Positions 5,462 through 64,000 of a DNA stretch of 64,000 nucleotides are shown piece after piece. The notes under the pieces were generated by a model. The model worked only from the letters and a program-made list of their open reading frames with translations. It was not told the DNA's origin and did not search any database. How positions within the stretch are numbered: the stretch's first letter is position 1; every line of letters starts with the position of its first letter. Source of the stretch: Sipunculus nudus (lineage: Eukaryota > Annelida > Sipuncula > Golfingiida > Sipunculidae); the NCBI GenBank assembly GCA_026874595.1, contig CM049308.1:24702367-24766366 (forward strand). Reading direction: 5' to 3'. A program made the translations under genes and the position numbers.

Positions 5462-6508
5462 CCCGGAGCAGACAGGAACAGGAAAAAACTAATTGAAATC
5501 TTCACCACCATGGACCTGAAAATTAAAGTGGAAACAAACCTGACATCAGTCAACTACCTAGATGTCTCACTGGACCTCCAATCTGAAAATTTCAGCCCCT
5601 ACAGGAAGCCAAACGATCAGCCAATGTTTATTAATACAAAATCAGACCATCCCCAAGCTATTATTCGAAACATCCCTGCAGCTGTCAACAAGCGCCTTTC
5701 AGAACTCTCTCAAGATGAAAACACCTTCAGAAAAGCATCAAAAGAATACGAACAAGCACTCAACAATAGCGGATACGAGCAAAAACTTAGTTATATCGCC
5801 CCACAGGAAGCTGCCGGAAAACGCCGCAAAAACCGAACCAGAAATATCATTTGGTTTAACCCTCCGAACAGTGCAATCGTGAAAACAAATATCGGCAAAA
5901 TTTTCTTGAAACTTGTAGCCCAACACTTTCCAAAAAATCACGCATTGCACAAATTATTCAGCAAAAAAAATCTGAAAATTAGCTATAGCTGCATGAAGAA
6001 CGTTAGATCATTAATACAAAGCCACAACACAAGATTACTGTCTGAAAGGCAACAAGGAGTACCCACACAACAAAGTCTATGCAACTGCCGTGACAAATCT
6101 GACTCTCCTCTCAATGGAAAGTGCCTAACCCCGTCCATTGTCTACCAAGTCGACGTACACAGCAACGGTACAGTTAACTCATACATTGGCATGACCGGTG
6201 GCCCCTTCAAACAAAGGTATTACAACCACAAGAAATCATTCACGCACAGGACCCATTCAAACGAAACCGAGCTTGCCAAATACATTTGGACCCTGAAAGA
6301 CAAGCAACAAAGCTTCACTATCACCTGGTCTATAATCCAGCAGTCAAACACATTTTTGACCTCTTCACGTCAGTGCAATCTATGTTTGGCAGAGAAATTA
6401 GCAATCATAAGCTTAAAACAAAAGAACCTTTTGAACAAACGTTCGGAAATTGTGTCCACCTGCCGCCATGGTCCAAGGGCACCCAACCGTGCTAAAAAGA
6501 AATTATAA
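5462..6508 (+). CDS. Penelope-like element protein, 5'-truncated (RT tail plus GIY-YIG nuclease)
   Basis: The open frame extends from 5462, just after an in-frame TGA. The first ATG is at 5510 and gives 332 residues. Residues 1-60 resemble the end of a Penelope-like reverse transcriptase (VNYLDVSLDL, PYRKPND, then a SDHP..IIRNIP stretch). Residues 110-170 carry WFNPP, TNIGKIFLKL and HFPKNHALHKLF. Cys191, Cys193 and Cys205 precede a GIY-YIG-type endonuclease domain: SYIGMTGG at 224-231, then Arg236, His240 and the candidate catalytic Glu in ETELAKYIW (252-260). The QCNLC motif is at 289-292. The catalytic YADD part of the RT is missing, so the protein cannot be active by itself. The domain order matches the Penelope class and not LINE or LTR elements. 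The junction at about 5453 is where the inverted copy begins. Confidence 0.88.
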   Translation, partial: PGADRNRKKLIEIFTTMDLKIKVETNLTSVNYLDVSLDLQSENFSPYRKPNDQPMFINTKSDHPQAIIRNIPAAVNKRLSELSQDENTFRKASKEYEQALNNSGYEQKLSYIAPQEAAGKRRKNRTRNIIWFNPPNSAIVKTNIGKIFLKLVAQHFPKNHALHKLFSKKNLKISYSCMKNVRSLIQSHNTRLLSERQQGVPTQQSLCNCRDKSDSPLNGKCLTPSIVYQVDVHSNGTVNSYIGMTGGPFKQRYYNHKKSFTHRTHSNETELAKYIWTLKDKQQSFTITWSIIQQSNTFLTSSRQCNLCLAEKLAIISLKQKNLLNKRSEIVSTCRHGPRAPNRAKKKL

Positions 6509-8465: not shown

Positions 8466-8641
8466 TCACGGCTGTGTACACTCCTCTGGGGCCGTTGCGT
8501 TTTGGTAACAGCAAAACTCGCCTTCAGGGCAGCCATTGTCACCTGGGTTTGGGCAAGCCGAATGTGGATGACAAGCCGGACCTTCTGGTGTCTGACACGC
8601 ACCCCCCATATCTGGTCCGCATGATTCCTGCGAGAGGCTCA
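8466..8641 (-). CDS. Secreted Cys-rich protein, exon 2 (residues 13-70)
   Basis: Phase-2 start after CAG at 8644-8642 and TGA stop at 8468-8466. It contains all eight cysteines. It is duplicated in inverted orientation at 1575-1758 with few changes, so it is conserved across the two arms apart from the poly-G difference. Confidence 0.8.
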
Positions 8642-11099
8642 CTGCAATTATACACAAGAACTCTTTTAGAGAGTCACTGTAATTATACGCAGGAATTCTG
8701 TGCGAGGCTGACTGCAGTTATACGCATGAATTCTGTAAATGGCTTACTGCAATTATACGCATGAATTCTGTGAGAGGGTCATTACAAGTATACGAATGAT
8801 CCTGGGAGAAGCTCCCTAGAAGTACACTTAGGAATTATATGCAAATTCTAATTCAATTATATATCATACCTTATATTTTATAATATTGTGTCTACATCAT
8901 TGTAATGAGCCATAAAAAAAGAGATAATTTAAGAAAATTTGGACACGAAATTATAATTTAAGTGTCTGCTTGTTCTCAATGGACACTTCAATGAGACCTC
9001 ATTATTTTCTTTTTCTTTTTGCACATTGATAATACTGAGAGGACACATACCCAACCAGTCAGTCCTCTTTGTCACAGGTACAATGATATATGCATGAAAT
9101 GTTTCATGTATAATGTATATTCTCGTGGCAATAAAATGAATGAATTGAATTGAATTGAATCAAGGTGACTGGTCACAGGCAAAACAGCCTCAAATCACAG
9201 CTGCTGATTGGATGGTGTCATGTCAACACTCTAAAAATATAACCAGCCAAAACAAACATGGCTACTCATGCAGGGACATTTCTGAACATTCAGATCATTA
9301 TTCTAAAGTTAAGAGAAACATAAACCTTTGAGAAAACTATCTCAAAATAAACAGGTGGACACAAGATGCTGGAATGGAGCATACAGTGAATGACTTAATT
9401 GGACCCATATACAATATAAAACAGACCCATCATGATGAATTTGCTAGAGAATTGACCTAACCATGAACTCAGTGTGAACTTAATCGCATATTAATATAAT
9501 GAAGAATCATTGACAAACAAGGTGCGAGCAACCAATCAAGTTATTTATATAGCTTTGGCATTGTAAGCAGTCAATCACCTGGCAAACACAAAATTTGCAT
9601 AAACTGGGCGACTCTCCGAAAGGAAACACGTGCCCATGGTAGCAAGAGCTGCTTACAACATAATAATGACGTCCCAGGTCTATGACACATGACGTCGTAT
9701 TGAAAGACGTCATCGATTGGTATCGCCTGACCATTGTTTACTATAATGCAGTCATTATGAAATGTCTTACAATATTTTGGATTATTTGTCTCATACGAAT
9801 TACGTGCCAGATAAGACATTATTATACACCCGGTGGTCGGAGGAATGGCTCTTGCAACCTATAGCCAGAACTTTTTACACTGTCTCCTTTGTATAAAAAA
9901 TATCCCGGAAAACATGCCGACATGGGTACTGCTAGTATCTACAGCATACACGTGTTCTGTTTAAGAGAGTTCTGTCAGATTATGCAAAGTTTTGTTTTTG
10001 TCAGATTATTGACGCTTTACATTGTTTAAGGTCACCTGATTGGTTGCTCGTTATTCGAATGCTTATGATTATTCATTGAATGAATTTGCGATTAAGGTCG
10101 CATAGAGATCATGGATAGGTCAATTCAAGGTGATGACGTCAGTCAATGCGACTTCATATGCGACCGACCTTTGTGACGTCACTATTGTCTTATAAACTGC
10201 TGTCGCATCCATGCATAGACACAGAAAGCCTCCTGTGTAGGAGCGTTTTGTGGGCTCATCAGCACAATTAGGTCAAATGGGCGGAGCATAAGGGCTGTGG
10301 TGTATAGGTCAATGGTCTAATAATCAATTAAAATAATTACTATACTGTAACATTGGGATGAAATTGTTGGTATATACTGCAGTATGCTTAAGTAAAAAAA
10401 CTTAATTGAAATAAATACTGGTATATTGCAATTTATACTGCAAGATAAAGTCAGTGCAAAAACGGATGAAATTTTTGGTATATACTGTGATATATTAAAC
10501 GCAGACTCTTCGCGAATGAATCAGTCATAGAATATTTCTTAATAAGTATAACAAAAGATTACGATCCAAAAGACTGACCCTGTTGGCAAGCTAGAAGCAA
10601 GACTCTACGGACAAAACTAGGACTGGCATAAGCCTTTTGTCATCCAAGGTGAACACAAGGTTGTGGGTCCGCGTTCCGTTCTGACCGCCGTCTGCTCTCT
10701 CGACCCAGAAGTGAAGAGACACTGGTCATGGGCGGGAGGTGATCGTGGAAAGAATAACCCTCTTTCGCCTTTTTTTGGCTGCTTGTATTGTATGCTGGGG
10801 GGGGGGGGGGCAGGAAGACAAAATGTTAAGTCGGAGATGGGACTGACATCGCCGATTATATCAGACTTCAATGTAAACGTCATCCATGGCTAGTATTTCA
10901 GCCAGTACAGAACTTTCGGGCTCAGTTCCGTCTTAAGAAGTAAATAGGATTACGTTTAAGTTTCATATATTTATTGGGTTTACAGGTCTAGTTATCCAAA
11001 CCTTAAACTATATCATAATTTTTATACTGAAATTACTTGGAAGAAAATGATGCACACGTACCGGCAAGCAGCGCAGCAAGTACGATGACGAACTTCATA
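8466..11099 (-). CDS. Small secreted eight-cysteine protein, two exons (70 aa)
   Basis: Exon 1 (11099-11063, 37 nt) encodes Met-Lys followed by a ten-residue hydrophobic stretch and ends on phase 1 at a CCG|GTACGT donor. Exon 2 (8641-8466, 176 nt) starts at a TTGCAG acceptor. The join is in frame and completes a signal peptide of about 17 residues, probably cleaved after Ser-Gln. The mature part, about 53 residues, has eight cysteines spaced C-x7-C-x7-C-x5-C-x7-C-x5-CC-x9-C, which suggests four disulfides. It has a possible N-glycosylation site (NAT) near the C-terminus. A TATA box lies upstream and ATTAAA lies downstream at about 8345. The CC pair recalls WAP or knottin folds, but the spacing does not match a family I can name. 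An antimicrobial, inhibitor or signalling role would be a guess. Existence as a gene is fairly secure; function is unknown. Confidence 0.75.
8619..8793 (-). repeat. Five tandem 35-bp units carrying decoy splice acceptors
   Basis: Units 8619-8653, 8654-8688, 8689-8723, 8724-8758 and 8759-8793. The first unit is the beginning of exon 2 with its acceptor. The next three upstream units repeat the acceptor-like CAG (at spacing 35) and a coding-like stretch similar to Val-Ser-Leu-x-Gln-x-Ser-Cys. Use of any upstream acceptor leads within about ten codons to a stop, so only the proximal one gives the full protein. Confidence 0.85.
9004..9370. other. Right-arm-specific spacer within the Cys-rich gene intron
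   Basis: Has no counterpart in the left arm. It contains a short AATTG repeat run (9140-9160) and nothing else recognised. Confidence 0.5.
9371..10160. repeat. Dispersed repeat with partial palindrome
   Basis: 9371-9640 is the reverse complement of 1-258, and 9985-10130 is similar to 1-170 in direct orientation. The two halves therefore form an imperfect inverted repeat around 9650-9980. The whole unit 9690-10130 has a diverged copy at 48740-49130 in an intron of SAV1. I see no coding capacity and no clear terminal repeats. It is an unclassified repeat family. Confidence 0.7.
9667..10181. promoter_or_regulatory. Cluster of TGACGTCA-type (CRE/ATF) motifs
   Basis: Full TGACGTCA sites are at 10134-10141 and 10174-10181. 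Seven-of-eight matches are at 9667-9674, 9690-9697 and about 9705-9712. All lie in the intron of the secreted Cys-rich gene. Function is inferred from motif only. Confidence 0.4.
10200..11060. other. Remainder of Cys-rich gene intron
   Basis: Mostly unique sequence, with a G-run at about 10797-10810. Open frames around 10617-10893 on both strands depend on this low-complexity stretch and have no recognisable domain. Confidence 0.4.
11063..11099 (-). CDS. Secreted Cys-rich protein, exon 1 (signal peptide)
   Basis: ATG at 11099-11097, the last 37 nt before a GTACGT donor. It encodes Met-Lys-Phe and a run of Val, Ile, Leu and Ala, typical of a signal-peptide core. The exon lies about 70 bp downstream of the TATA box, a normal distance for a short 5' UTR. 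Confidence 0.75.
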
Positions 11100-28600: not shown

Positions 28601-31600
28601 CCCCTTGGACTAATATTGTGCCCAAAGTTCATATTTTGAAAATCAGCCATACTGGAGATTTTGCACACAAACAGGCTGAAGATTAATAAAAAATAATTTG
28701 AAAGTGAAGGTTTTGCACTTGGGAGGACCTAAGAATGCCCTCCCACATAAAACATTTGACCTAGATAGGGATACAGAATTATACTCACCATTCCCTATAA
28801 GCCTACCATGGGGGGGTAAGGGGGGGATGGTTAACAAACATTGCATAAAAGGCAAACACTATATGCTACTTCATGTATTACAATTATAAGATCATGGATC
28901 TGTTGCAATGACATTACTGCAAAGCTCTGAGAGTAGGACTGAGTATCACAGTTATTATTGGGACATCATTATTGCCACCAAGATCTCCCGCTTCAAAAGT
29001 TTCTCAAGTCAAAAATATGACTTACGTCATTTAATTGTAACAGACCCCATGTAATCCGGATAACAAGAGAAAATTAATCAAGTATATCAGCGTGAAGCAC
29101 CTAGAAATGGTTACTATAACAATGAAGTCTCAGTAATCACAATTCTAATATGGTAATAACATTAACTAACACACCTTAACACACCAGTGTGACATAACAG
29201 CTATTATGACAAATCACATTTCAAATATAAATAATTATAGTACACCATTTTCTTGAAATTTACCCCCTATGCTAAATACTTTAGTTTAGGAATTTCTCCA
29301 TTTTATGGCCAAGGCACTTATTTGCTTTGTAATATTTATTTGTTTTGCATGCAGCAAGGGCTCTGACCTTGACCTTCTGCCATACTTACGATCATTACAG
29401 ACGAAGTACGTCTTTTTGTTGGCTCCCGTTCTGTTGTCTTCCTTGGGGACTGTGGGAGGAGGTTTGTAGTCTGGTTTTGGTGTGTCATCTTCTTCAGCCT
29501 CTTCTGTAGCAATACAGACCATGCATTTACCAGTAAACGTCATCCTCCCCTTAACATACAGTAAATGCCTTATCACTGGGATGATTAGCATTACCAACAT
29601 TTTAATTTGCAGCAGATATTTCCCAATGATGAGGTTGTCACTCAATTCACTGCAATAAGCCATATGTCTAAAAGGTTACTAACCTGCCTGGAATTTATTG
29701 AAATCTTTCTCAACAGTCACAACCTTATCATGGTTAAGTAAAACAAAGTATTAAGTAAAAGCTGTGTGGTTCAGAAAAAAAACAGTTATGATAAGAAATT
29801 ACCCAGCATGGTTTTCAAATAATCTAAATAGAAGATATCCATAAGTATCCCAATGGACCTAATGTGACATTGCATGGGTAAATTATGTCATAATTAAGAA
29901 AGGTGAAAACAGATTTATTACAAAATAATTATAATTAAACTTTCATTGTATATTCATGAAATGATTATCAGAACTTTGCTTATATTATCTAAATATCAGA
30001 TTTGCAAAACTAATTCTCTTTACAAATCCTTTCATTTGACACACAATACATGTTTTTGTTCATTTCAGTGTACTACAGGAGGTTGGAGAGAAATAAAGAT
30101 GCACAAATCTAGTCATATGCTAACATTTCTAACATTTAGAAAATCATGCCTGAGGAATAAAATAATCATCAAACAAAATAAATTTCTTGAGGGTTTATAC
30201 GTTAGGATACTGAAGTCTGCATGCACATGCAAATAATTTGGATCTAGGCCTATATCAGGGCAAATCTTTTTTTCATATCAGGATTTGAATTTGCTCACTT
30301 TAATCATAAATGAATACTAGATAATAAAACCCAACATATCTATAAGTCATTATTTTAAATTATCATGTTGTTCTTTTGTAAAATTATTTTAAATTATTAT
30401 GTTATTCTTTTGTAAAATTAGAATGCTTGTTGCTTGTTTTTTTTTTATTTTGATAATGACACAATAAAACAAAACTTGAGAATGAGATGTCCTGAAAAAA
30501 TGGTTTGAAAGATCTATTAACTCAAATAGGAAAAAGACTTATTCTTAAAAGTTTTTTAGCATGCAGCCTGAAGCATTTGATGTTGGTATGTTTTCAGTTC
30601 TTAAATAAAAGGTATGTATTAATTAAATCTGCTTATACACAAGCCTTGGGGAATCTTTCCATGAAACATAGCACTTAGGCTTTTTCATGAAGCTGTTACG
30701 AAATGTATTTATTCACAAGCACTGTCTAACATGGTTTAAGAGTTCTCTTGGTACCTTATTAAAGTTAGATAAATTCTCATGCATTTTTATAAGTATTTAC
30801 CCTATATTTTCCTCCAAGAATGAAGTGTTTATTCTAAGGTAGCTACATAAATATTTAACAACAAGTGTTCCTATACATCCAGTGAGTTCATGCACCATTC
30901 ATGATTCAACATGTAACAGGGAGTGTGCATGTGGATGTACTAGATGCAAACATCACTTCTATGCAATGACAGTGACAAGCACACAACATTTACTTACTAT
31001 CAAGCTGAAGTATAGTATCTGTGTATATGAAATATTGTCATTAATATTTTAACATCTCAGTCAATAAAACAAGAAATGTCTGCCAGTAAAAGACAAACTA
31101 CTAGAAACTGTTAAGATTACAGCAAAATCTGGTCTCCATGTATTGAGTATTATATAACATTTATAAAAAAATAAGATTAGAAAGGCACACTAAAGCTTAA
31201 GTAATATAAGTTATTTCACAAAACACAATGGAAGGAAACAGCAGATATTGCTAAATGTTCAGGTTACCAAGAAGCCCAGCATAACAAAAGTATATGTAAG
31301 AGCACTACCAGATACTACAGTACAATATAAAACTGACACAAGAAGATATAACAGTAAATAGTGTGCAACCTGGCACGAACAGACATTAGTCCAAATGTGT
31401 TACTCATCCACCATAGATACTGGGTAGAACTTGGCCACCTATCTCACCATACAATAGTTTATTTTGGGCTCAAAGAAATAGCACATCACTTGTGTTTTTT
31501 TTACCACTATTCCAACACCACATGGTACAGTTAATGATATGTGTGACTGTGATATTTAAATGTTACATACCATCATCATCAGCATCATCATCTTTCTCTG

Positions 31601-40139: not shown

Positions 40140-40235
40140 AAGGCATGTGATCACCTCATGGGCAGCATGTGATCATTTCATGGGTAGCATGTGATCACCT
40201 CATGAGTAACATGTGATCACCTCATGTTCATTCAG
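40140..40235 (+). repeat. 27-bp tandem repeat with palindromic TGATCA core
   Basis: Units such as GCATGTGATCACCTCATGGG are repeated about four times. A shorter version is at 44212-44280 in copy 2. Confidence 0.85.
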
Positions 40236-41284
40236 TGCAGCCAAGTACAGGTCAAAAGTTCACTCAGTCTAGCCAGGTGCAGGTCAAGAGTTCACTCAGA
40301 ACAGTAGCCTGAGCCAGTAATTTGTCACAGTACACTCGGGGCAACAGCCTTTCTCACCTAAGCCTGGTCAGCCCGGTGCATCAGACTCAAGGCCTGATAT
40401 TCTGACCTGTCTATGTGTCTTTAATGGCTTTCTTGTTCACAAGACAGGTGTCGCCATCTACAATGACTTTTGCAAAGTGTATGTGCCTGCTTAATTCTAC
40501 GGAGGAATTTGATATATCAGCCTGAAATTGGGCATATTTATACATGTCAAATAGCTTTGTCGTATACAAGACTGGTGGTGCCACCTACAATAATTTTTGT
40601 GTTGTGTGCACCCATGCCAGAATTTCAGCAGTGATGTTTGTGTATTGTTCTTGTTCAAAATGTTTAGTACTTGCATTGTTCATATATATGAAAAGTAGTG
40701 GTTCAGCATTGAAGCGTTATACCTGGTGTATATCCATATGCACAGGTTGCATTAGGCCTGTAGGCCTTGTTTTTTAGTTAACTGACGGAGTTTTAGTAGG
40801 TATGATGGAAAACCACGTGCCAATGTCAATCTGTTCATTCTTCTTCTTGATTCAATAAAAATTCGATGATAAAGTCAATAAAAAAAATATATATTTTAAA
40901 AAAATCTGTACGAATATTGCATCTAGTACCTGAACACTTCTAAAAATCAACTGTTTCCCCGTTTGTTAATTTAAATAAAGATATCAGATAGCCGTGTCAA
41001 AGTGAACATTTTTTCGTGGTGCCATGTGTCAGTTGACCATCGCTAAAAACGCGTATTATCAGTTCATATATTGTTCGACAAATGTCACCTGCAGAAACTG
41101 CCAAGCTTCATTTCAGAAAACAATAATTATAAATAGACCAAACTTGCGTTTTAAGCGGTCCTGACATGTTTAGTAAATTGCTCTTCAACGGCGGGAATTC
41201 ATGTCACATAGGGCCTCACTGCAGAAAGCGTCAGTCGGTAGCTGAAACATACAACAGGTCACAGAGGTCACGGGGCGATTAAGG

Positions 41285-42716: not shown

Positions 42717-45300
42717 TCCTTTGTTAGCGAACCGTTGAGCTTATGCGATGGTGTGGCATCAGCCGTTGTCCGTCTTCTGTAAGTTAACCCATACTATCTT
42801 GAAAACTGCAAGAGTTAGCATTACAAAATTTTATGCAAAAAATTAGTCATCTAAAAAACTCTATCGGATTTTGCTTATTTTTTGGCTAACTGCATTTTCT
42901 TAGATTTTATAGGGAAAAAGCTTAAAAACCTTTAAAAATCTTCTTCTCCGAAAATGTTCAGCCAAAATGTCCAATATTTCATAGAAATGATCCCTGGAAC
43001 AATCTCTCTCAAGTTTGTTCGAATGGTTCAAGTTCAGTGATTTTTGGCTGAGTTACAGGAGGTTGAACTTAGTCAACTGTCAAAAAAGCATACTAAAATT
43101 ACAATCTCAGAAACGGCCGGAGCTATCATCACATAATTTTATGCCAGTGTTGGTCACATGAGTCATATGAAATTCAGGTATTGGTGGCGCCACCTGCATT
43201 GACCTTTTCTTGTACAGGGGTCATTGGTCATCTGTACATTAAGCCATAATTTCTCAGGATTAGCAGAAGCTACCATCCCCAGATTTTATGCAGTAACCTG
43301 TCACATATCAAATGTTTAGGGATTCATATTTTTTTCTGCTATCGGCTAAAGCTGAAAAACTTTTAAAAGTCTCCTTCTTGTAAACGGTCCAGCCAATTTG
43401 TTCAATATTTTACAGAAATGATCCCAGAGGCAAGCCCTCTCAAGTTTGTTAAAATGGTTTGCATTTGATGAATTTTAGTGGAGTTACACGAATTTGAACA
43501 GTCATTTGACCAAGTAAGCATACTGACATAGTTATCTCAGATATGACAGAAGCTAGCCTTACCAAGTATTGTGCAAATGTTTGTCACATGACTCATATTT
43601 GAAGTTGCAGATTTTGTGGTGCCACCTACATTGACCTGTTTTCTTATGGGCAAAAAACCCATAATTTTAGCCTCTTTCAGTCTAAAATGTTTATGATGAA
43701 ACTGTCAAGTTGAATCGTTTAATTTTTCAAAAGAATTATCCTAGGACATGGTTCTTTCATTAATATCAGAAAAGCTTAATTTGGTCTTATTGGCATTATT
43801 ATGTCTATTTCAAACTGAGGACTGCAAAACTGTTCTTCTACAAAATTGTTGTTTCAGTTATAACTTCTGTAACGGTGCACAAAAATTATTCATAGGTGGC
43901 CTTTGTTCAAGTTTACTTGAATAATTTTTGGCAAAATTATTGGACCTTTAACAATGAAAGGATTGCATCTTTTATTATTCTAGATCTATATTTTGATAAA
44001 AAGTTTATGAATATGTCAGCTTGAAAAAAAGCATTTCAGCCAAAGTCTTTCAGTATGTGTAAACAGATTTACCAACAGGCCAATATTGTGTCTGTATCTT
44101 TAAATAGGTTGAGAAACTGCCAGCTGTTTCAGATTTGGCAACAGATCAAGAGTTCATTCAGTGCAGCCAGATATGGGTCAAGAGTTCAATCAGTGCAGCC
44201 AAGCACAAGGCATATGATCACCTCATGGGTGACATGTGAATACCTCATGGGCACCATGTGATCACTTCATGGGTGTCATGCCCCTCAGGTCAGGGCCCCT
44301 GCATGAGCTTATGCCATGATGTGGCTACTATTTCAGTTTTGGCAACAGGCTAGAGGTCAGTCTGTATCTATTTATAGCTTTGGCAGACTGCCAACTGTAT
44401 CAGATTAGGCAACAGGTCAAGAGTTCACCGAGTGCAGCCGGGGAATAGGTCAGGAGTTCACTCAGTGCAGTAGCTGCATTCTATTTATTGCGTTGGCAGA
44501 CTTCCCACTGCATCAGATTTGGCTCCAAAGTTCAGCCTGGATCTATTTATAGCTTGGCAGACTGCCAACTGTGTCAGATTATGCAACAGATCAAGAGTTC
44601 ACTCAGTGCAGCCAGGTACAGGTCAAGAGTTCACTCAGTCTAGCCAGGTGCACGTCTTGAGTTCACTCAGTGCAGTAGCCTGAGCCAGCAAATTTGTCAC
44701 AGTTGACTCGGGGCAACTGCCTTTCTCACCTAAGCCTGGTCAGCCCCATGCATCAGACTCCAGGTAAGTTTGATGTATTGGCCTGATATTTTGACCTGTC
44801 CATGTGTTTTTGATGGCTTTCTCATTCACAAGACAGGTGTCGCCACCTACAATGACTTTTGCACAGTGTATGTGCCTGCTTATTTCTACAGAGGAATTTG
44901 ATATATCAGCCTGAAATTGGGCATATATATATATATACAAATCGAATAGCTTTGTCGTATACAAGACTGGTGGTGCCACATACAATAATTTTTGTCACAG
45001 TGTGTGTCCCTGATTATTTTCAGGAGGGGTTTGATATGTCAGTCTGAAATTGGGCATATGTATATATCTCTGATAGCTTTGTTGTATACAAGACTGGTGG
45101 TGCCAGCTTCAATCATTTTGTGTTGTTTGCGCCCATGCTAGAATTTCAGCAGTGATATTTGTGTAATTGTTTCTTATTCAAAATGTTTAGTACTTGCATT
45201 GTTCATATACATGAAAAGTAATGGTCCAGCATTGAAGCATTATACCTGGTGTATTTCCCTATGCACAGGTTCACATTTGGCCTGTAGGCCTTGTTTAAAA
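42717..45300 (+). repeat. Dispersed 2.6 kb repeat, copy 2
   Basis: Uninterrupted relative of 37549-40785. It has the same start (TTAGCGAACCGTTGAGCTTA), the same internal degenerate subunits and the same end (GGCCTGTAGGCCTTGTTT). The CAAGAGTTCACTCAGTGCAG units are more numerous than in copy 1. Confidence 0.8.
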
Positions 45301-46655: not shown

Positions 46656-60122
<13,467 letters not shown>

Positions 60123-60148
60123 GTAAGTTAGGCCAAAAAAAAATAAAA

Positions 60149-60450: not shown

Positions 60451-61107
60451 TTTTTTTATTGCTTGCCGGAATCAAAGATTTCGGCAAGCATATTGGTCAG
60501 TTGCGTATGTCTGTTTGTCTGTTTGTCTGTCTGTCTGTCTGTTTGTTTGTCATCACTCTCCTGGCCACAATTTCGCCACAATCACCTTGAAACTTTCAGG
60601 GATGATGGACAAACAAAATTCTAGGTGCCCTATTGTTTTTGGTCAAAATAAGTTGAAGGTCAAGGTCAAGGTCATCAAAACTTCTCAAAACGGTTTTTTC
60701 TTCATATCTTTGTGACTTTTAGTCGTATCTACTTCAACAATAGCTCATTTTAATCGTCATTCCAAGGCCTGTCATCTGGTGTGTAGCTGACTCAAATTTG
60801 CCGTAACCAGGGTTACAAATTTTGGGGGAAAAGTCATGATATTCGAAATTAAGGGGTCTTATTTTTCTAACTTTGTCAGTTTTAAAGCTAGAGAGACCTA
60901 GTTTTTTGCATCAGGTAGCATTCAACTAGTACTACAAGATTTTATTACAAGTCTTGCAGTATCTCGTAAAATATCTCGTGAATAGAGATATTTCGAGATT
61001 TCATTCATCTTGCGCCAAAGGCCACAATATTTCAGGAATCTTTTTGAAACTAACATATCATAAGTCCTACACTAGTATCTCGAAATTGTTTTTTCATTTT
61101 TTGAATA

Positions 61108-61126
61108 TGGCTGCTAGGGGGCGCTG
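61108..61126 (+). promoter_or_regulatory. CTCF-like core motif, unit 1
   Basis: TGGCTGCTAGGGGGCGCTG, close to the CTCF consensus TGGCCACCAGGGGGCGCTA. Motif similarity only. Confidence 0.4.
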
Positions 61127-61439
61127 CACACGACCCTCACACATATATCATTACATTGGCCATATCTCTAAAACCCAAAGCCTCAATTACATAAACTGTA
61201 GCTTATTTTTTTCCTCTGAGTCTTCTCCATAAACTGATAATGTCATCTGGTCTCAATCTTGTGTCACTTTGTCAGTGTGTCTGGCTGTTTCTCAGTTGTC
61301 CTGAAATTTGCCTGCTTGCTGGTTCTTGCATCTCACAATAGCATTCTACAGGCCACAGTTTTTTAAAGAAGCATTTGAAAACTGATGCATATTATGTTTT
61401 ACAGAAATATCTCAAAACATATTTTTCATTTTCCGGATA

Positions 61440-61458
61440 TGGCCGCTAGGTGGCACTG
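61440..61458 (+). promoter_or_regulatory. CTCF-like core motif, unit 2 (weaker)
   Basis: TGGCCGCTAGGTGGCACTG. The core GGCGC is changed to GGCAC. Confidence 0.35.
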
Positions 61459-61770
61459 CATATCACCCTCACACACACATATCATTATATTGACCATATC
61501 TCTAAAACCCAAAGCCTCAATTACAGAAACTATGGCTTATTTTTTTTCCCTTAGTCTTCTCCATGATCTAGTAATGTCATCTGGTCTCAATCTTATGTCA
61601 CTTTGTCAGTGTGTCTGTCTGTTTGTCAGTTGTCCTCAAATTCGCCTGCTTGCTCTTGGATCTCTCATATAGCATTCTACAGGCCGCAGTTTTGAAAGAA
61701 TCCTTTTGAAATTATTACATCTTAAGTCTTACACTAATATCTCAAAACCAATTTTTCATTTTTCCGGATA

Positions 61771-61789
61771 TGGCCGCTAGGGGGCGCTG
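61771..61789 (+). promoter_or_regulatory. CTCF-like core motif, unit 3
   Basis: TGGCCGCTAGGGGGCGCTG, differing from the consensus only at A to G, C to T and the last base. Confidence 0.45.
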
Positions 61790-62101
61790 AACTCAAACCT
61801 CTCCCAACATATCATGCTTTGGCAATATCTCCAAAACTATAAACCTCAGTTACATAAACTGTAGCTTTTTTCTTCCTTTGAGTCTTCTCCATAACCTGGA
61901 GTAATCATCTGGACTCAATCTTGAGTCACTTTGTCAGTGTGTCTGTCCGTTTGTCAGTTGTCCTTAAATTCGCCTGCTTGCTGGTTCTTGCGTCTCACAT
62001 ATAGCATTCTATAGGCCACAGTTTTGACGGAATCCTTTTGAAACTATAATATCTTATGTCTTACACTAATATCTAGAAATAAATTTTTCATTATCGGGAT
62101 A

Positions 62102-62120
62102 TGGCCACTAGTGGGCGCTG
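62102..62120 (+). promoter_or_regulatory. CTCF-like core motif, unit 4
   Basis: TGGCCACTAGTGGGCGCTG. Contains the CCACTAG half exactly, with T at one G position. Confidence 0.4.
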
Positions 62121-62432
62121 CACACGACCCTCACACACATACCATTGTATTGGCCATATCTCAACACCCAAAGCCTCAGATACATAAACTATAGCTTATT
62201 TTCTTCCTTTGAGTCTTCACCACAACCTGATTAAGGCATATGGTTTCAATCTTCTGTCACTTTGTCAGTGTGTTCATCTGTTTGTCCGTTATCCTCAAAG
62301 TCGCCTGCTTGCTGGTTCTTTCGCCTTACATATAGCATTCTACAGGCCACAGCTATGACGGAATCCTTTTGAAACTAGGACATCTCATGTCATACACTAA
62401 TAATACGAAACGCATTTGTCGTCTTCGGAATA

Positions 62433-62451
62433 TGTCCGCCAGAGGGCGCTA
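62433..62451 (+). promoter_or_regulatory. CTCF-like core motif, unit 5
   Basis: TGTCCGCCAGAGGGCGCTA. CCAGAGGGCGC is a common CTCF core variant. Confidence 0.45.
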
Positions 62452-63363
62452 CAATGGAGCCTCCCAAGTATATCATTAATTCGCCATACCTCCGAAACTA
62501 AAAATCTAAATTACATAAATTATAACTCATTTTCTTCCTTTGAATCTTCTCCATAACTAGGTTAAGTCATCTGGTGTCAATCTTGTCTCACAAAGTCAGT
62601 ATGTCTGTCTGTTTGTCTTTTGTTGTCAGCTTTGTCTGCTTGCCTGTTCTTTTGTCTCATATGTCATTTTACAGGCCACATATTCTCAGCAATGTCCCTG
62701 AGAGTCATTCCAATAATAGAAAACCGACAATATGTTCTGTCTGTCCGTCTGTGTTTCTCTTCCGAATTCCGGCAAGCGTTTGACCTATGGTCGTCTAGTT
62801 TGTTTGTCACCACTCTCCTGGCCACAATTTTGCCACAATAACCTTGAAACTTACAGGGATGATGAAAAACATAATTTCTAGGTGCCCTATTGTTTTTGGT
62901 CAAAATAGGTGAAAGGTCAAGGTCAAGGTCATCAAATCTTCCCAAAACGATTTTTTCTTCATATCTTTGTGACTATTAGCCGTATCTACTTCAACAATAG
63001 CTCATTTTAATTGTCATTCCAAGGCCTGTCATCTGGTGTGTAGCTGACTCAAATTTGCGGTAACCATGGTTACAAGTTTTGGGGGAAAAGTCATAATATT
63101 CGAAAATAAGGGGTCTTATTTTTCTAACTTTGTCAGTTTTAAAGCTAGAGTGATCTAGTTTTTTGCATCAGGTAGCATTCAACTAGTACTATAAGATTTT
63201 ATTATAAGTCTTGCAGTATCTCGTAAAATATCTCGTGAATAGAGATATTTTGAGATTTCATTCATCTTGCGCCAAGGCCATATTATTGCAGGAATCTTTT
63301 TGAAACTGACATATTACAAGTCCTACACTAGTATCTCGAAATCGTTTTTTCACTTTTTGAATA

Positions 63364-63382
63364 GGGCCGCTAGGGGGCGCTG
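63364..63382 (+). promoter_or_regulatory. CTCF-like core motif, unit 6
   Basis: GGGCCGCTAGGGGGCGCTG. Confidence 0.4.
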
Positions 63383-63662
63383 GATGCGAACCTCCCGAAC
63401 ATATCATATTTTGGCCTCAATTACATAAACTATAGCTTATTTTCTTCCTCTGAGTCTTCTCCATAACCTAGTGTAGTCATCTGGTCACACTTTGTCAGTG
63501 TGTCTGTCTGTTTGTCAGTTGTCCTCAAATTGGCCTGCTTGTTGGCTCTTGCGTCTCACATATAGCTTTCTACAGGCCACCGTTTTGAAAGAATCCTTTT
63601 GAAACTATTACATCTTAAGTCTTACACTAATATCTAGAAACTGATTTTTCATTTTCCGGATA

Positions 63663-63681
63663 TGGCCGCTAGGGGGCGCTG
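63663..63681 (+). promoter_or_regulatory. CTCF-like core motif, unit 7
   Basis: TGGCCGCTAGGGGGCGCTG, identical to unit 3. An eighth motif is cut by the window edge at 63995. Confidence 0.45.
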
Positions 63682-64000
63682 AACTCGAACCTCTCCCAAC
63701 ATATCATGCTTTGGCAATATCTCCAAAACTATAAACCTCAGTTACATAAACTGTAGCTTTTTTCTTCCTTTGAGTCTTCTCCATAACCTGGAGAAGTCAT
63801 CTGCACTCAATTTTGAGTCACTTTGTCAGTGTTTTCGTCTGTTTGTCAGTTGTCCTCAAATTTGCCTGCTTGTTGGCTCTTGCATCTCACATATAGCATT
63901 CTGTAGGCCACAGTTTTGAAGGAATCCTTTTGAAACTATTACATCTTATGTCTTACACTAATATCTAGAAATAAATTTTTTAATTTTCCAGATATGGCCA

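Follow-up and report, generated by a model that had tools for sequence, protein, structure and literature searches.

Transposons are already known to supply part of the CTCF sites of mammalian genomes, and Helitrons can spread a binding motif of a chromatin complex, as the ISX family does in Drosophila miranda (both according to the account in PMC6598467). Among rolling-circle transposons, the HINE layout consists of subterminal inverted repeats (subTIRs), a microsatellite, central repeats, and a 3' palindrome or stem-loop, as described in PMC7492417 and PMC4067079. Here, we analyse 64,000 nucleotides of the sipunculan Sipunculus nudus (assembly GCA_026874595.1, contig CM049308.1, positions 24,702,367 to 24,766,366 of the forward strand; hereafter the window), which end in an array of ~331-bp units, each with a CTCF-like motif, inside an intron of the gene SAV1. 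By its sequence anatomy, this array is two tandem copies of a non-autonomous rolling-circle transposon of the Helentron (HINE/Pearl) kind. A preliminary description of the same DNA had called it a satellite-like array; a transposon with internal tandem repeats is the better description, and its termini and flanks recur at many loci.

Self-comparison, extended into the flanking DNA, divides the region from 60455 to window-equivalent 64691 into two head-to-tail copies of one element, both on the plus strand. Element 1 (60455-62798) is a non-autonomous, Helentron-like (HINE-like) copy with both ends and five central units, as judged by self-comparison and by comparison with other genomic copies. 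It starts with the 5' subTIR GCTTGCCGGAAT and an adjoining inverted repeat (60461-60490); the latter is complementary to the subTIR, and the two are predicted to form a strong hairpin (60460-60473 with 60477-60490; fold z -7.0). A TGTC/TGTT microsatellite found by a tandem-repeat scan (60508-60551) leads into the left flank, or head (60552-61018), which is repeated in element 2 up to 63274. The central array of five ~331-bp units (61019-62672) was delimited by repeat and unit comparison. The 3' subTIR ATTCCGGCAAGC (62766-62777) is 100% complementary to 60461-60472 over 12 nt, and similar ends are found at other loci. The right terminus (62781-62798), recognised by comparison with other copies, is the palindrome GACC-TAT-GGTC followed by TCTAG. 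At many loci, the palindrome CGACCTATGGTCG is likewise followed by TCTAG and both element ends are flanked by T-rich DNA. The 3' palindrome alone folds weakly (16 of 200 shuffles of a related end were equally good). Element 2 (62799-64000 within the window) is a tandem copy with four units and without the 5' subTIR, and its TCTAG end lies at window-equivalent 64691. The same termini and head-to-tail copies were seen at further genomic loci, and the genome contains 143 matches to the Helitron_like_N domain, several of them within open frames of more than 2,000 aa. Some copies (loci L012, L028, and L032) begin with several tandem repetitions of the 5' hairpin block, which follow one another with a period of 55-84 bp.

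The closest described systems are Cg_HINE of Crassostrea gigas and the bivalve Pearl elements. As presented in PMC7492417, they share with the Sipunculus nudus element a 5' subTIR with a complementary inverted repeat, a GTCY-type microsatellite in the left flank, a short central satellite-like array, a 3' subTIR followed by a palindrome, and genome-wide dispersal. Compared by description, the Pearl unit measures ~160 bp in contrast to 331 bp here, and the CTCF-like site within the unit sets the sipunculan element apart; the word CTCF is absent from the main text of that paper. The DINE-1/HINE elements of Drosophila and a mite, in the account of PMC4067079, likewise have subTIRs, a microsatellite, central repeats, and a 3' stem-loop; their T-rich targets compare with the T-rich flanks seen here, and DINE-1 also shares the 5' inverted repeat. 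They differ from the present element in its CTCF-like unit and in its 3' CTAG end, which in that account belongs to a proto-Helentron. ISX is similar in being a Helitron family that disperses a motif, but its motif is one of dosage compensation with demonstrated function (PMC6598467), whereas the CTCF-like motif here is known from sequence. For mammalian CTCF-bearing elements, occupancy has been measured; the present case is a DNA transposon with several tandem, same-strand predicted sites per copy. One such mammalian element is the B2 SINE (short interspersed element), and DXZ4 is an X-linked tandem repeat bound by CTCF. Both DXZ4 and Firre resemble the array in repeating CTCF-associated units at a locus (for Firre, see PMC4820808), although these are single loci with demonstrated CTCF binding, whereas here the element is dispersed and the sites are putative. 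The R0 repeat of Firre, as PMC4820808 characterises it, has no canonical CTCF motif. Among the papers listed in the literature searches, judged by titles and abstract openings, no Helentron with a CTCF-like site in every tandem central repeat was found, and no paper of the library searched combined the words CTCF and Helentron.

The window contains seven complete 19-mers resembling TGGCCrCyAGGGGGCGCTr, all on the plus strand, compared with a mean of 0.01 in 100 shuffles. The seven complete motifs, the additional one cut by the window edge, and their single orientation had all been recognised in the preliminary description; its figure of one to four changes per motif is to be corrected to 0-2 letters off the consensus. 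Against a 19-column CTCF matrix patterned on JASPAR MA0139.1, the seven scored 17.4-26.8 bits (p 6e-7 to 4e-10), which is a very strong match in one orientation. They are TGGCTGCTAGGGGGCGCTG at 61108-61126 (17.4 bits), TGGCCGCTAGGTGGCACTG at 61440-61458 (24.2 bits), TGGCCGCTAGGGGGCGCTG at 61771-61789 and again at 63663-63681 (26.8 bits each, type B units), TGGCCACTAGTGGGCGCTG at 62102-62120 (22.8 bits, type C), TGTCCGCCAGAGGGCGCTA at 62433-62451 (23.7 bits, type D position), and GGGCCGCTAGGGGGCGCTG at 63364-63382 (24.9 bits, type A). The eighth motif starts at 63995, has its first letters in the window (63995-64000), and is completed by the flanking DNA as TGGCCACTAGTGGGCGATG (19.5 bits); a ninth follows at window-equivalent 64326 (13.1 bits), both again on the plus strand. 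Six of the seven complete motifs are the six top-scoring places in the window, and the best score outside the array is 18.0 bits at 50346. One such match would be expected in the window by chance with a probability of ~5e-5. The distances between the nine sites are 332, 331, 331, 331, 931, 299, 332, and 331 bp. The nearly constant 331-bp spacing noted earlier thus applies within elements (331-332 bp), with the exception of one unit of 299 bp that carries deletions, and it is broken by the 931-bp gap, which comprises the right end of one element and the head of the next. Four unit types (A, B, C, and D) can be distinguished, and each has some form of the motif, that of type D being the weakest (13.1 bits).

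The host intron had previously been assigned to a Hippo gene, and the gene can now be named as SAV1. An exon at 60058-60123 on the plus strand encodes the first part of the SARAH domain and ends at a GTAAGT donor, after which the intron with the array begins. Joined to the next exon on the same strand, at window-equivalent 65415-66488 (L009:5415-6488), it matched the Salvador chains of the PDB (E 3.6e-18). A Pfam search of the SAV1 pieces, the joined two-exon peptide included, found no family. The second exon remains open to a stop codon (357 residues); therefore, it is the last coding intron of SAV1 that contains the array, on the same strand as the gene. Past the SARAH part, the last exon (L009:5550-6488) encodes a long tail rich in Q and G, with short repeats inside it.

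The element is abundant. With up to 3 mismatches allowed, a unit word of 18 bases had 16,764 matches in the 1.43-Gb genome compared with 1,878 for the reversed control, an excess that corresponds to roughly 15,000 units. Exact matches to the 17-mer GCCGCTAGGGGGCGCTG number 2,840 (none for its reversed control); one comparison 17-mer, taken where the unit is well conserved, is found 1,139 times. A similarity search that used one unit as query yielded 2,101 candidates at first pass, 40 of which were scored, and the best of these were 98-100% identical to the query. An exact 20-mer scanned against viral contigs had no match. Among the 100 places listed for the comparison 17-mer, a dense cluster of elements lies on contig C1 at 64.3-67.6 Mb, perhaps a pericentromeric or low-recombination block.

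A CTCF orthologue is present in the host. One frame matches human CTCF with E 4e-109 and 56% identity, the next zinc-finger frame reaching 7e-56, and in the reverse check the top PDB match of this frame is CTCF (E 3.6e-109). Its contact residues in zinc fingers 3, 4, and 5 equal those of human CTCF, zinc finger 7 retains R and D, and zinc finger 6 differs. CTCF words are 25-80-fold above control genome-wide: CCASYAGGKGGCRS occurs 2,859 times compared with 35 for its reversed control, and the wider word CCNSYAGNKGGCAG 3,824 times compared with 152. From 100 listed places of CCASYAGGKGGCRS, 48 sites were sampled, close neighbours being skipped and all lying in the first 23 Mb of contig C1; 13 belong to the 331-bp repeat family and 35 lie outside it. 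Of these 35, three are linked in a chain by sequence similarity, and other repeats would escape so small a set. The 35 sites agree with CTCF beyond the search word as well, with a pyrimidine at matrix position 18 in 27 cases and A at position 19 in 22. Among the first 100 CCNSYAGNKGGCAG words listed, position 6 is A in 55, G in 26, T in 15, and C in 4, so the G that the array carries there is within host usage (21 of 90 once possible family words are removed), and G is commoner at this position than in the human matrix. Position 11 of the same words is G in 57, A in 38, C in 3, and T in 2; the T found there in type C units, as in TGGCCACTAGTGGGCGCTG, is disfavoured in host CTCF words. Given an orthologue with conserved contacts and the excess of CTCF words, host CTCF could plausibly read the array sites.

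If individual copies were kept as functional sites, the motif would be expected to change more slowly than the remainder of the unit. Among the seven complete units of the window, the motif ranks 37th of 314 comparison windows of 19 bp (mean pairwise identity 0.852 compared with 0.765), so its better preservation than parts of the unit, as previously stated, is literally true but not exceptional. For a first genomic sample of 188 units (149 distinct), most of them young, changes were counted by parsimony on a tree; of these units, 139 were retrieved by whole-unit similarity including the motif (L012-L040), 40 by a 17-base seed outside the motif (L085-L104), and 9 are those of the array itself. 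CTCF-word loci (L001-L008, L045-L084), the duplicate L011, L010, and the zinc-finger loci L041-L044 were left out of the tree and unit-type analyses. A further 45 of 233 unit rows were excluded, 34 for gaps in the motif columns (25 without any motif column and 9 partial) and the others for many gaps; the motif is flattered in the tree because rows with motif gaps were removed. The motif showed 2.68 changes per column compared with 2.71 for the unit, and 121 of 287 comparison windows were slower (a smaller earlier tree gave 1.26 and 1.25). Most of the 188 motifs still score well, 180 at 12 bits or more and 130 at 17 or more. When these units were compared within types, motif decay was 0.0286 compared with 0.0371, with 127 of 270 comparison windows slower, and 189 of 270 contained fewer distinct variants than the motif.

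A second sample was chosen with an 18-base seed ~75 bases upstream of the motif, required to be exact and excluded from the columns counted; it comprises 20 copies taken from 100 listed places of the 16,764, with cluster neighbours skipped. Motif identity was 0.78 compared with 0.727, 24 of 60 comparison windows were better conserved, the motif was gapped in 6 copies, and 12 of the 20 still scored at least 12 bits. In the tree, within types, and in these seed-chosen copies alike, tests of selection on individual copies found no exceptional conservation of the motif. The special preservation proposed in the preliminary description is not supported in the genomic copies sampled; this is largely the outcome that had been named beforehand as speaking against the CTCF reading, and the alternative offered there, that the motif is simply a feature of the repeat, is better supported by ~15,000 units and a form of the motif in every unit type. 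In diverged subfamilies, 29 units were counted (48 rows, less 10 with the searched word and 9 with a motif gap), and 26 of them keep a motif of at least 12 bits. Motif divergence was 0.120 in this set compared with 0.178, with 59 of 270 comparison windows less diverged, or 35 of 270 when two rows were dropped (one poorly aligned, one from a zinc-finger locus); the set is not free of bias, because a neighbouring motif had led to most of its loci. Comparison of the four unit-type consensuses gave a motif identity of 0.851 compared with 0.709, and 38 of 305 comparison windows were better. The copies thus suggest no exceptional constraint on the motif, mild constraint being possible and most visible in the element lineage.

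We consider it quite likely that a pair of HINE-type transposons occupies the last SAV1 intron, that the CTCF-like motif is ancestral to its unit, and that the element spreads sites which are not maintained afterwards, some of them probably bound by CTCF. Two head-to-tail copies would have landed in the intron. The site would already have been present in the central 331-bp repeat before unit types and subfamilies split, because all of them share it. With its anatomy, its copy number, and some version of the motif in every unit type, the element distributes CTCF-like sites in same-orientation clusters. As the array sites fit the base preferences of host CTCF words, CTCF would probably bind some young, unmethylated copies. 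After insertion, the motif of a copy decays at roughly the rate of the surrounding unit; most copies, as seen in the samples and presumably by default also in SAV1, would thus not be maintained as boundaries. In the transposing lineage, the motif may have been retained for a benefit to the element, or merely captured and copied. A bolder proposal is that this transposon is a main distributor of CTCF sites in this animal, with thousands of copies each bearing several same-orientation sites read by the host CTCF, which would tolerate G at position 6, waves of transposition that rewrite loop anchors, and a site kept since CTCF or cohesin aids spread or expression of the element; we regard this as doubtful.

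Several observations weigh against parts of this account. The scores come from an approximate rendering of the 19-column JASPAR matrix MA0139.1. CpG columns outside the motif underwent 5.82 changes per column compared with 2.59 for other columns in the 188-unit tree, where the four CpG columns of the motif had 6, 3, 2, and 7. Such an excess is expected if the copies are methylated in the germ line, and germ-line methylation would reduce CTCF binding there. Other results hint at mild constraint on the motif. Its CpG positions differ in 0.18 of cells in the diverged subfamilies compared with 0.42 for CpG elsewhere. Within types, 60 of 270 comparison windows were slower than the motif after removal of CpG columns and 29 of 270 after removal of type A (35 of 270 also without CpG), which improves its rank but does not set it apart; for type B alone without CpG, 18 of 270 were slower. 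Changes in the 29 diverged units were directed towards tolerated letters with P 0.006 per locus. The direction-of-change tests are mutually inconsistent: the same units gave P 0.60 with each change counted once and 0.75 without CpG, the diverged set minus two rows gave 0.005 and, with each change once, 0.15, and the 188-unit tree gave 0.16 and, with each change once, 0.10.

The most serious competitor is a chance likeness between a transposon repeat and the CTCF consensus, without CTCF binding in vivo, which we hold to be possible though rather unlikely. It is consistent with the near-average decay of the motif and with direction tests that are not significant once each change is counted a single time (P 0.10, 0.60, and 0.15), and a p of 4e-10 becomes less striking if all repeat families in a large genome scan count as trials. 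Coincidence accounts poorly for a match with a ~5e-5 chance of occurring in the window, for the agreement with host usage of G at position 6, and for a motif kept across diverged unit types and subfamilies. The motif might instead serve the transposon through another protein, such as a different zinc-finger factor or its own Rep protein, its likeness to CTCF sites being secondary. Many other C2H2 zinc-finger frames occur in the genome, a large share of those listed being on contig C16, and the motif persists more at the level of the element lineage than of the copy. The full 19-bp match and the host word usage fit CTCF, however, and no alternative factor was identified, no search having been aimed at one; this explanation appears improbable to us.

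A classical satellite array, amplified in place by unequal exchange, would be suggested by tandem 331-bp units that are 73-83% identical to each other in element 1. Within element 2, however, three of four units match a counterpart in element 1 at 93-94%, above any neighbour pair (the fourth, at 63275, has none above 79%). In the window, each element has four or five units within defined flanks, and copies with shared termini occur at many loci. This origin was rejected, because units with identical flanks and termini recur in this way; as the primary origin it is already contradicted and is scarcely credible, although the array may have grown locally within an ancestral element. Another reading, extending the preliminary description, is that CTCF occupies the same-orientation sites of the SAV1 intron, which would stop cohesin there and act as a strong directional boundary kept by selection. 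Nine same-strand sites within 3.2 kb, a CTCF orthologue in the host, and two sites (61771 and 63663) with the top score among the six commonest motif variants of the 188-unit set are in keeping with such a function. Against it, the motif evolves not clearly slower in any sample, two of the nine sites score only 13.1 and 17.4 bits, both type C sites carry T at position 11, a letter present there in 2 of the 100 host words listed, and the element is one among thousands. Moreover, a review (PMC10658182) describes a single in-depth spiralian study, on a squid, in which directionality of the motif was not identifiable. We consider such a boundary improbable; a strong directional one in SAV1 lacks support, and a maintained one is not favoured.

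For a possible role of CTCF in organising spiralian chromosomes, two reviews name a single squid study (PMC10658182 is one of them). In the Sipunculus nudus genome, a CTCF orthologue and thousands of CTCF words occur together with a transposon family whose very similar young copies add thousands of further predicted sites that are strong, oriented, and clustered. A comparison of young with decayed copies, and of loci with and without the insertion, would be a natural experiment on whether CTCF stops loops and whether transposons supply the sites. If CTCF does not bind, the case would warn against equating a nearly perfect row of motifs with a boundary.

Other features lie elsewhere in the window and its surroundings. 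On the minus strand, a radial spokehead-like frame at 29286-29675 (Pfam PF04712, E 2.6e-11) probably forms an exon of a neighbouring gene encoded on that strand, opposite to SAV1. Arrays of one 35-bp unit at 1450-1598 and 8618-8814, by eye in opposite orientations, are separated by ~7 kb, in which an open frame of 348 aa (5462-6508) is found. This frame had no Pfam match; by eye, its C-terminal part resembles the GIY-YIG nuclease of a Penelope-type element. The two arrays and the frame are possibly parts of another mobile element. Similar tandem repeats of 22 and 32 bp occur 4 kb apart, at 40143-40299 and 44211-44675. Downstream of SAV1, at window-equivalent 69619-69832, there is an exact 107-bp tandem duplication, each copy of which contains the CTCF-like sequence TCACCACTAGATGGCAGCA (22.1 bits).

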